Assembly (NCBI GenBank): GCA_020721205.1
Contig: DYNF01000030.1
Location: 1 to 41,233 of the forward strand
Reading direction: 5' to 3'
DNA: 41,233 nt
Origin: Prochloron sp. SulCav_FS08_3_32_3330
Lineage (GTDB): Bacteria > Cyanobacteriota > Cyanobacteriia > Cyanobacteriales > DYNF01
Position numbers and translations under genes: made by a program. Positions 1 to 30,517 of this stretch are shown one piece after another. Under the pieces are notes generated by a model that was not told where the DNA came from, did not search any database, and saw nothing but the letters and a program-made list of their open reading frames with translations. Positions within the stretch are counted from its first letter, which is position 1. Each line of letters starts with the position of its first letter.

Positions 1-48
1 GGTAGCAACGGGTTTTAACCCGTTGAAAAAAAAGAATGAAAACGCCCT
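1..48 (+). mobile_element. Right end of a miniature inverted-repeat element (family 1, copy E)
   Basis: The first 48 bases match the right end of the element seen complete at 4781-4961 and 24640-24822. They hold the hairpin GTAGCAACGGGTTTTAACCC plus GTTG, an A-run, and the terminal GAATGAAAACGCCCT. The left part lies outside the window. The last bases form the start codon region of the next gene. Confidence 0.8.
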
Positions 49-356
49 GCTTTAAAAGAAGACTTAAACAATTAAATAAACGCTATCGTCAAATTAAACA
101 GGATATTCAACCTATTTTAAATGAATTTAAAAATGGTAACTTTATCGGTGATCAAATTACTGGTGTTAATGCCACTGTTTTTAAAGTAAGAGCGAAAAAT
201 AGTGATATTCCCACTGGTAAAAGTGGCGGTTATCGTCTTATTTATCAGTTAATTTCACCTACATCAATTTTACTTTTAGTAATTTATGCAAAATCGGATC
301 AGACAAATATTAGTACAGAAGAAATTGAAACAATTATTAAGCAGACTTTTAATTAA
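36..356 (+). CDS. RelE/HigB-family type II toxin (ribosome-dependent mRNA interferase type)
   Basis: A 106-residue protein of the usual RelE/ParE-fold length. The segments VFKVRAKNSD (residues 48-57), GKSGGYRLIY (61-70) and YAKSDQ (84-89) are typical of a cyanobacterial RelE/HigB-like toxin family. Family members cleave mRNA at the ribosome or inhibit translation. The N-terminus is odd: the ATG and the codons for MKTPC lie in the end of a repeat element, there is no Shine-Dalgarno sequence, and family homology starts only at about residue 6. The original start was probably replaced by element insertion. No antitoxin gene is recognisable downstream; one could lie upstream, outside the window. 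The fold call is firm, activity is uncertain. Confidence 0.75.
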   Translation: MKTPCFKRRLKQLNKRYRQIKQDIQPILNEFKNGNFIGDQITGVNATVFKVRAKNSDIPTGKSGGYRLIYQLISPTSILLLVIYAKSDQTNISTEEIETIIKQTFN

Positions 357-4744: not shown

Positions 4745-4780
4745 ATTAATACAAAAGTTTGTTGTGGGGCTTTTAGCACT

Positions 4781-4961
4781 AGGGCGTTTTCATTCTCCAA
4801 AAAGCAACAGGTTGAAACCTGTTGCTACATAAGCAAAACCTGCCTTCGCAGGTTGATTTTTTAATATTAGTTAATATTTAATCCTAAAACCCGTAAAGAC
4901 GGGTTTTGTTTGGGTAGCAACGGGTTTTAACCCGTTGAAAAAAAAAGAATGAAAACACCCT
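4781..4961. mobile_element. Family-1 miniature inverted-repeat element, copy A
   Basis: 181 bp with inverted ends (AGGGCGTTTTCATTCT at left, complement of AGGGTGTTTTCATTCT at right). Four hairpins follow in order: GCAACAGGTTGAAACCTGTT, AACCTGCCTTCGCAGGTT, AAAACCCGTAAAGACGGGTT and GCAACGGGTTTTAACCCGTT. There is no reading frame for a transposase. It is flanked by direct copies of GCTTTTAGCACT (4769-4780 and 4962-4973), part of a 193-bp tandem duplication. Confidence 0.85.
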
Positions 4962-4973
4962 GCTTTTAGCACT

Positions 4974-5293
4974 AGGGCGTTTTCATTCTCCAAAAAGCAA
5001 CAGGTTGAAACCTGTTGCTACATAAGCAAAACCTGCCTTCGCAGGTTGATTTTTTAAAATATTAATTAATATTTAATCATAAAACCCGTGAATACGGGTT
5101 TTGTTTGGGTAGCAACGGGTTTTAACCCGTTGGAAAAAAAGAATGATAAAAATTCAAAATTCAAAATTCAAAATTCTTGGAAAAAAGAATGATAAAAATT
5201 CAAAATTCAAAATTCAAAATTGTAAAAAAAAAGAATGATAAAAATTCAAAATTCAAAATTCAAAATTGTAAAAAAAAAGAATGAAAACACCCT
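4974..5293. mobile_element. Family-1 element, copy B, expanded internally
   Basis: Same ends and same four hairpins as copy A, displaced by exactly 193 bp. Near the right end it carries three tandem 46-bp units starting at 5141, 5187 and 5233. Each begins GAATGATAAA and contains the heptamer TTCAAAA several times. Copy A has none of these units and the copy at 30368 has one. Confidence 0.85.
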
Positions 5294-5334
5294 ACTTAAT
5301 TTGTGTTAAAAGCCCCACAACAAAATATTTCTAA

Positions 5335-6732
5335 TTAGATTAATTCACTCATTTTTTCTAAGTCTAAAACTTGATTTAATGTTGTTTCATCCATTAAACC
5401 TTTTTCTAACACTATTTGACGCAAAGATTTACCTGTTTCTAGTGATTCTTTTGCCACATTAGCGGCGTTTAAATATCCTATATGAGTATTAAGAGCAGTT
5501 ACTAAAGCGAGGCTTCCTTCGGCATAATTTAAACAACGCTCTTTATTAGCGGTAATTCCTACTAAACAATTGGTAGTTAAAGCTTGAATTGTTCGTCCTA
5601 ATATCTCAATACTATGAATTAAATCGTAGGCAATTAAGGGCATCATTACATTTAATTCTAATTGTCCAGCTTGGGCGCACAAGGCGATCGCCTGATCATA
5701 ACCCATAACTTGAAAACACACCATAGAGGTCATTTCCGCCATCACAGGGTTATATTTTCCGGGCATAATCGAGGAGCCGGGCTGGACGGGAGGAAGTTGA
5801 ATTTCCTTAAATCCGGTTTTCGGTCCTGAATCCATTAACCTTAAATCATGGGAAATTTTGACTAAATCCTGTGCTAAATTTCGTAAACTGCCTGATACAC
5901 TCACAAACGGCGACATACTCTGCATTGCCGCCATTAAATGGGGAGCAGATTTAAGAGGTTTCTGAATTAAACCTGAGAGTAATTCTGCTACTTGATAACG
6001 ATACTGAGGATGAGTATTTAACCCTGTCCCGGAGGCACTACCTCCTAAACCGAGACTATATAAGTCTTTTTCCGAGTTTTCAATGCGGGTTAAATGCTCA
6101 CTTAAAATCTGAAACCAAGCCCGAAAACCCTCTCCTAGTCTGACAGGAACAGCATCTTGTAAATGGGTACGTCCTGATTTAACAATATCTTGAAATTCAT
6201 CTGCTTTATTGTCTAAAACGGTGATAGCCTCAGATAAAGCAGGATATAAACAATGTTCTAAAGCGAGTAAACTACCAATTCTAATCGCTGTGGGGATTAC
6301 ATCATTAGTAGATTGTCCGTAATTTACATGATCATTTGGACTTATTCTCTGATAATTTCCCTTTATATCTCCTAATATTTCTAATGCTCTATTCGCTAAA
6401 ACCTCATTAATATTCATGTGATGAGATGTACCCGCCCCGGCTTGGTAAATATCTACGACAAATTGATCTCGATATTTGCCCGTTAAAATTTCGTCGGTTG
6501 CCTGTACAATGGCTTTAGCAATTTCATCAGAAATACAGCCTAACTTTCCATTGGCGATCGCCGCCGCTTTTTTGATTAATAAACAAGCATCTACATAAGT
6601 GGGTAAAGGCTTAATCCCGCTTATAGGGAAGTTTTCCGTTGCCCTTAAAGTTTGAATACCGTAATAAACATGATCAGGGAGTTGTCTTTCTCCCATCGAG
6701 TCCTTTTCAATGCGAAAATTAGTTTGATTCAT
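5335..6732 (-). CDS. aspA: Aspartate ammonia-lyase (aspartase)
   Basis: 465 residues, the normal length for the fumarase/aspartase superfamily. It deaminates L-aspartate to fumarate and ammonia. The N-terminus (FRIEKDSMGERQLPDHVYYG, then TLRATENFPIS) resembles aspartase more than class II fumarase. The HHMNINEVLANRA segment (about 104-116) and the superfamily signature GSSIMPGKYNP (about 318-328) are present; E. coli AspA has A where this has G, and V where this has Y. Related lyases share the signature, so fumarase is the main alternative. The 5' flank (6733-6872) is an AT-rich direct-repeat array, and the 3' side runs into the repeat nest. Confidence 0.88.
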   Translation of the reverse strand: MNQTNFRIEKDSMGERQLPDHVYYGIQTLRATENFPISGIKPLPTYVDACLLIKKAAAIANGKLGCISDEIAKAIVQATDEILTGKYRDQFVVDIYQAGAGTSHHMNINEVLANRALEILGDIKGNYQRISPNDHVNYGQSTNDVIPTAIRIGSLLALEHCLYPALSEAITVLDNKADEFQDIVKSGRTHLQDAVPVRLGEGFRAWFQILSEHLTRIENSEKDLYSLGLGGSASGTGLNTHPQYRYQVAELLSGLIQKPLKSAPHLMAAMQSMSPFVSVSGSLRNLAQDLVKISHDLRLMDSGPKTGFKEIQLPPVQPGSSIMPGKYNPVMAEMTSMVCFQVMGYDQAIALCAQAGQLELNVMMPLIAYDLIHSIEILGRTIQALTTNCLVGITANKERCLNYAEGSLALVTALNTHIGYLNAANVAKESLETGKSLRQIVLEKGLMDETTLNQVLDLEKMSELI

Positions 6733-6872
6733 AACTATGATTATACTATGATTATACTATGATTATACCATGATTATAGTATAATTGATTTTTAAATTAT
6801 GATTATACCATGATTATAGTATGATTAATTTTTAAATATGATTATGTCATGATTATAAGATTTTAAATAATC
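6733..6872. repeat. AT-rich direct repeats upstream of aspartase
   Basis: Four 11-bp units of CTATGATTATA type run from 6735 to 6778. They merge into about three longer units of roughly 39 bp that contain ATGATTATACCATGATTATA followed by GTATRATTRATTTTTAAAT. The array lies between the aspartase start codon and the end of the 47-residue peptide gene, where the aspA promoter would be expected. Confidence 0.75.
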
Positions 6873-24628: not shown

Positions 24629-24837
24629 CCTCTACTTTTCAGTGTTTTCATTCTCCAAAAAGCAACGGGTTGAAACCCGTTGCTACATAAGCAAAACCTG
24701 CATACGCAGGTTGAATTTTTTTAATATTAGTTAATATTTAATTATATAACCCGTAAAGACGGGTTTTATTTGGGTAGCAACAGGTTTTAACCTGTGGGGA
24801 AAAAAAGAATGAAAACACCCTGACTTTTAAGTAGAGG
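24629..24837. mobile_element. Family-1 element, copy C, inserted in a small hairpin
   Basis: The core is 24640-24822, with the same four hairpins as copies A and B. It is flanked by direct ACTTTT repeats (24634-24639 and 24823-24828) and, outside these, by CCTCTACTT (24629-24637) and its complement AAGTAGAGG (24829-24837). Removing the core and one ACTTTT gives the palindrome CCTCTACTTTTAAGTAGAGG, so the insertion appears to have split a hairpin. It ends five bases from the rimM stop codon. Confidence 0.8.
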
Positions 24838-30290: not shown

Positions 30291-30367
30291 TGTAATTATT
30301 AGGGTATTAATTAATCTAATTATTTTATTTTATTATACATTATCATTGCCGTTACAGTTACTATAGC

Positions 30368-30517
30368 AGAGTATTTTCATTCTTCAAAAAGCAACTGGTT
30401 GAAACCCGTAAAGACGTGTTTTGTTTGGGTAGCAACGGGTTTTAACCCGTTGGAAAAAAAGAATGATAAAAATTCAAAATTCAAAATTCAAAATTGTTGG
30501 AAAAAAAGAATGAAAAC
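30368..30517. mobile_element. Family-1 element, copy D, internally deleted
   Basis: It keeps both ends (AGAGTATTTTCATTCT at left, GAATGAAAAC at right) and the fourth hairpin. Hairpins 1 and 3 are fused: GCAACTGGTTGAAACCCGTA runs straight into AAGACG, and hairpin 2 is lost. It has one 47-bp unit of the kind present three times in copy B. It ends one base before the stop codon of the beta-propeller gene. Confidence 0.8.

Follow-up and report, generated by a model that had tools for sequence, protein, structure and literature searches.

A four-hairpin MITE with ISAs1-type ends in Prochloron sp. SulCav_FS08_3_32_3330 and the probable derivation of its covarying core from a Y1 transposon

The window analysed here is the 41,233-nucleotide contig DYNF01000030.1 of Prochloron sp. 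SulCav_FS08_3_32_3330. Judged by its sequence, the repeat it contains is a non-coding MITE of ~183 bp with ISAs1-type ends, often arranged in tandem. An earlier note, written from the letters of the contig alone, drew attention to the region 4781-4961. This region is copy A of the repeat, which in its complete form spans 4780-4962, and all sequences quoted in that note were found in the window. The copies and their parts, all on the + strand, are as follows.

4780..4962, +, copy A, whole MITE of ~183 bp (BLAST 95% to copy B; many genome copies)
4770..4779, +, left target-site duplication of copy A, CTTTTAGCAC; the same sequence stands at 4963-4972, straight after the right terminal inverted repeat (TIR)
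4780..4796, +, left TIR of copy A, TAGGGCGTTTTCATTCT
4804..4825, +, hairpin H1 of copy A, an outer palindrome whose reverse complement bears the GTAG tag, arms GCAACAGG..CCTGTTGC; covarying pairs 29-42 (r2 0.68) and 30-41 (r2 0.74)
4837..4854, +, hairpin H2 of copy A, an inner hairpin; xCCxGCCTnCGCxGGx kept across genera
4888..4905, +, hairpin H3 of copy A, an inner hairpin and the inverted counterpart of H2; both loop orientations occur, AAAG and CTTT
4918..4937, +, hairpin H4 of copy A, an outer palindrome with GTAG just before it; covarying pairs 144-155, 146-153 and 141-158
4946..4962, +, right TIR of copy A, AGAATGAAAACACCCTG
4963..4972, +, target-site duplication CTTTTAGCAC common to the tandem copies A and B
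4973..5294, +, copy B, tandem to A; four-hairpin core to ~5140, right TIR at 5278-5294
24638..24822, +, copy C, full length, with a degenerate left TIR; H1 GCAACGGG..CCCGTTGC, H4 AGG..CCT
30367..30516, +, internally deleted copy, with an H1 arm fused to H3, followed by H4
1..49, +, right end of a further copy, H4 and right TIR, cut at the contig edge

In copy B, a 46-bp A/T-rich tandem repeat is inserted between the core and the right TIR. This repeat, which occupies 5134-5287 of the window, consists of AAAATTC units with GAATGATA and also adjoins the copy at 30454.

The ends of the element were characterized across the whole genome. The 17-bp TIR, CAGGGYGTTTTCATTCT, matches 311 sites of the 4.73-Mb genome exactly, while the reversed control pattern matches none. 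A total of 161 core copies were extracted from this genome, 155 of them distinct over the core, and 103 of the 161 retain both ends. Of these 103 two-ended copies, 58 are flanked by target duplications of 9 or 10 bp in which eight or more positions are identical, and other duplication lengths are near background. Tandem arrays are frequent and follow the order duplication-element-duplication. These TIRs, target duplications and tandem arrangements identify the repeat as a MITE. A palindromic target preference is weak (4.6 against 3.6 matches of 15 in 25 copies), and no preference is claimed. Core-only tandem arrays with a period of ~148-152 bp and no TIRs between units also occur (L027, L122, L132). 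Both the transposon nature of the repeat, with its TIRs and target duplications, and the origin of its core go beyond what the earlier note had described.

The same TIRs enclose unrelated interiors in three other cyanobacterial genomes (G006, G159 and G057), and in G006 and G252 an ISAs1-family transposase adjoins the same TIR. The corresponding loci, L220 and L219, score 99.8 and 126.9 bits against the ISAs1 profile, for which the cut-off is 70. The genome of the window itself holds a relic of 794 bp (L049:469-1263) composed of a left TIR, a hairpin core, the decayed start of an ISAs1 transposase and a right TIR; the transposase remnant is 59-70% identical over 44-56 amino acids and has one internal stop. 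The relic also holds a second H2-like unit. The element thus resembles ISAs1 insertion sequences and MITEs in having the same TIR beside a family transposase, duplications of 9-10 bp and TIRs on several gene-less elements. It differs from them in that its interior is made of hairpin units of other origin and in that a profile search of its own genome found no intact ISAs1 transposase. No complete autonomous ISAs1 copy with both TIRs was seen. The single DDE_Tnp_1 fragment of the genome was considered as the source transposase and rejected, as it lacks such a TIR. Plasmid and phage collections gave no match. In G006, the MITEs L197, L198 and L200, which are bounded by these TIRs, contain G-rich repeats (GGGAGTTA) that may form quadruplexes.

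The earlier note had proposed that the element is built of four local hairpins whose stems change in paired fashion, and this held genome-wide. Applied to an alignment of 65 copies, the local model of four hairpins gave 57 cells changed on both sides, compared with 13.7 in shuffles (0/500). When the partners were slid, the same model gave 0-19 double-changed cells, and a nested long-range model gave 15 against 10.6 in shuffles (31/500), both over the 65 copies. A long hairpin of the whole element is the best predicted fold (~-98 kcal/mol), but covariation gives it no support. Over the 155 distinct cores, 138 paired double changes were counted where 36.8 were expected, the maximum in 500 shuffles being 52. 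The H1 stem swap between copies A and B on one side and copy C on the other is present as it had been described, with GCAACAGG..CCTGTTGC in A and GCAACGGG..CCCGTTGC in C. The H4 difference is likewise real, although one outer pair of the AGG..CCT hairpin in copy C is broken (CAAC..GTGG). The change from AAAG to GAAT in H3 between copies A and B, previously taken as a stem change, lies in the loop and has no bearing on pairing.

Paired stem changes are therefore far above chance, yet not absolute. All stems are perfectly paired in only 62 of the 155 copies, and one or more pairs are broken in 60% of them; broken stems affect H1 and H2 in 47 copies each, H3 in 18 and H4 in 17. Counted as distinct types, 39 changes are one-sided and only six are paired; the one-sided types are mostly rare, and the six paired types are common.

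Linkage between alignment columns was also determined from the 155 distinct cores. Partner columns have r2 values of 0.50-1.0, whereas non-partner columns 6-15 nt apart have a mean r2 of 0.056, with the reservation that r2 depends on allele frequency and that non-partner sites within a hairpin can show complete but asymmetrical linkage. In H1, r2 falls to 0.03-0.04 for cross-arm columns displaced by one position from the partner, and the intervening loop column shows no linkage to either arm. The arms are therefore coupled by pairing and not by mere nearness. Columns more than 15 nt apart have r2 values of ~0.015-0.025, and ~90% of column pairs show all four combinations. Assembly chimerism is thought an unlikely source of this module shuffling because linkage decays within 6-15 nt, below any usual k-mer.

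Gene conversion, which had been named as an alternative, thus has a real part in the pattern: exchange is very strong, with linkage equilibrium beyond ~15 nt and a four-gamete fraction of ~0.9. Conversion might then account for everything by hitch-hiking, copying whole hairpin alleles from element to element, or between H1 and H4, with no correction of one arm by the other. The strength of the shuffling is in keeping with this, as are the CGGG/CAGG alleles common to H1 and H4. However, conversion spreads symmetrical alleles and cannot create them, a hairpin step is needed for the loop inversions described below, and each hairpin has private paired alleles (GGGG/CCCC in H1, AGA/TCT in H4). In addition, the alleles that a copy carries at H1 and at H4 are independent of each other (r2 0.01). 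Hitch-hiking by itself is thus highly improbable. No association indicative of homodimer avoidance between H1 and H4 was found.

The cause of pairing looks to lie at the DNA level and not at the RNA level. On the strand read, mismatches in the 155 cores comprise 18 G.T cells and 43 A.C cells, with 11 types of each. RNA should tolerate G.U over A.C, so that the lack of a G.T excess leaves selection on RNA unsupported. The loops also occur in reverse-complement form. In H3, AAAG is found in 99 copies and CTTT in four, and GAAG in 33 and CTTC in three; H1 has both GA and TC, and H4 both TC and GA. Such reverse-complement loops point to DNA strand switching. The spectrum of change types given above, with many mostly rare one-sided types and six common paired ones, points to the DNA level as well. 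A selected fold of the transcribed element, for example as terminator or mRNA-stabilizing hairpins, would be consistent with the covariation of local hairpins, with the T runs that follow some hairpins on one strand and with the GT pairs reported for GTAG REPs (PMC3733652). Nevertheless, an Rfam search returned no family above its cut-off, and the copies occur in diverse surroundings, with broken stems being tolerated. Of the readings considered, selection on RNA has the least support, and we regard it as very unlikely. The earlier proposal that the structure is maintained as RNA or as cruciform DNA therefore stands as regards pairing; the balance of G.T and A.C, the loop inversions and the broken stems speak against its RNA part.

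Template switching is known to yield homogenization of arms together with inversion of the spacer (PMC8604942), and it has been shown to account for compensatory hairpin changes (PMC8794818). The paired changes are probably best explained by DNA template switching combined with exchange between copies. When the DNA strand is folded, template switching would carry a mutation from one arm over to the other, and the resulting symmetrical alleles would then be spread and reshuffled among copies by recombination and MITE transposition. We infer these steps only indirectly, since no mutation event was seen directly and the copies have no ancestral order. Against arm correction, a common non-palindromic H2 allele, CAGGCATACG, persists in ~25% of copies.

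The core extends well beyond this genome. A covariance model (R1) of the core has matches in 58 of the 149 sampled genomes of the order, own genome included, i.e. in 57 of 148 others. The layout conserved across genera is an outer palindrome, GGCTACACAAACAAA, an inner hairpin, a spacer, a second inner hairpin, TTTGTTTGTGTAGCC and a second outer palindrome. The outer stems are entirely different in sequence between genomes, yet paired, and 263 of 274 pairs are Watson-Crick, a figure biased upwards because the stem search selects whichever stem pairs best. Inverted pairs of GTAG-tagged palindromes are formed by H1 and H4 as well as by the units of 31 relative loci. REP dimers are described as GTAG-tagged palindromes in tail-tail orientation (PMC3733652), and H1 and H4 are likewise GTAG-tagged palindromes placed tail-tail. 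The core is much older than the MITE carrying it.

In relatives, a gene for a Y1 transposase occupies the place of the core spacer. A protein search for relatives recovered a close group in which units lie beside the gene in 18 of 18 loci (L227-L244), whereas units were found in none of nine distant Y1 relatives (35-41% identity). The intermediate Y1 loci L245 and L246 (46-50%) are without units, and 44 control loci totalling 125 kb contained none. Among the full-length cyanobacterial matches of a named collection, which include Microseira, Brasilonema, Nostoc, Lyngbya and Trichocoleus, 23 of 25 loci carry a unit no more than 300 bp from the gene; the partial matches L279 and L283 have no unit within that distance. 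Most close relatives carry units on both sides of the gene, as putative element ends. The signature Y---Q--HH, a mark of subclass 1.2, is present in nearly all of the relatives' Y1 proteins, and the protein scores 74.8 bits against an IS200/IS605 cut-off of 55 and 29.7 bits against a REP_Tyr_transpos cut-off of 80. Subclass 1.2 Y1 genes flanked by double-hairpin units are found at L176, L227-L244 and L257-L278.

The core is present in 20 of 21 genomes with this Y1 clade and in 38 of 128 without it (p=9e-9). A protein search found no transposase of the clade in the genome of the window, which has the core. Two Y1 genes of that genome, L070 and L071, were considered as partners and rejected, having no units near either; L070 adjoins a TnpB-like gene. 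Outside cyanobacteria, exact inverted ends of like layout measure 49 bp in L282, 60 in L292, 24 in L293, 23 in L285 and 17 in L291, compared with shuffled maxima of 0-12, and other non-cyanobacterial members have no long inverted ends. These five loci are binned as Armatimonadota, Chloroflexota and Gemmatimonadota and share the end layout with different linkers.

According to a published survey, typical terminal structures are generally absent from subclass 1.2 (PMC6006769). The present clade matches that subclass in its Y---Q--HH signature, its length of ~135 amino acids, its mostly cyanobacterial distribution and its low copy number, but departs from the survey (PMC6006769) in being regularly flanked by double-hairpin ends. 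GTAG REPs and REP dimers, including the cyanobacterial GTAG-15/16, show several likenesses (Di Nocera 2013; PMC3733652): GTAG-tagged palindromes in tail-tail pairs, subfamilies with complementary stem changes, small stem-loops in spacers and, in A. variabilis, dimers that sit in long palindromes. The likeness of GTAG-15/16 to the window's core is one of described features. In contrast to GTAG REPs, every half-unit of the window's core comprises two hairpins and a conserved linker, TTTGTTTGTGTAGC; the two halves lie within an element that has TIRs and target duplications, and their linked transposase does not belong to the class 2 RAYTs. Like REPIN/RAYT systems (Bertels and Rainey, PMC3116915; TnpA-REP class 2, PMC6006769), the element contains a gene-less inverted hairpin pair present in many copies, and related genomes hold a cognate Y1 gene flanked by the same units. 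The linked transposase, however, has Y---Q--HH and falls above the IS200/IS605 cut-off and below that for REP transposases. The core is therefore REPIN-like in its working but is not filed as a REPIN, because this transposase falls outside the RAYT class.

On the reading we favour, the core is a REPIN-like derivative without a gene of its own, which an ISAs1-type MITE has captured. This derivative would consist of the two ends of a Y1 element (IS200-like, subclass 1.2), each formed by an outer GTAG-tagged palindrome and an inner hairpin, which would have been joined after loss of the transposase gene. The core may have been mobilized in the past by the Y1 enzyme and later captured by the MITE. 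It appears quite likely that one subclass 1.2 clade is a cross-phylum mobile family, present in Cyanobacteria and indicated in Chloroflexota and Armatimonadota, whose double-hairpin ends consist of an outer GTAG-tagged palindrome, a linker and an inner hairpin; that its four-hairpin gene-less derivatives are widespread in cyanobacteria; and that here they were captured by an unrelated ISAs1-type MITE, with their arms kept paired by DNA template switching.

The main rival is selection on DNA structure, in which a hairpin-reading enzyme such as a Y1 transposase, present or past, mobilizes only copies whose arms pair. Y1 recognition would leave a pattern like that of arm correction. The flanking of the relatives' Y1 gene by the same units argues for it, and so do the outer stems that differ wholly between genera and still pair and the equal disfavour of mismatches of both strands. 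Yet the genome of the window is without such a Y1 transposase, its copies appear from their sequence to have moved by their ISAs1-type ends, and at least one broken pair is seen in 60% of copies. Selection by such an enzyme is accordingly considered rather unlikely. The combined reading, i.e. an ISAs1-type MITE with a Y1-derived core, arms paired by template switching and alleles reshuffled between copies, is given a probability of roughly 60%.

Covariation is widely taken as proof of functional RNA. More than 150 copies in one genome here combine strong covariation with loop inversions and no G.U preference, and thus provide a natural test case of whether template switching alone can give compensatory changes. 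The half-unit is also a concrete candidate substrate for a transposase subclass without known ends, and the repeat would be an example of one mobile element carried within another. Two further repeats occur in the window. Three tandem 42-nt repeats at 1370-1495 each have a small hairpin (ACAGGCAAGATGCCTGT), and the differences between these units are paired. At 6730-6842, an 11-bp repeat, ATGATTATACT, adjoins a lyase gene.
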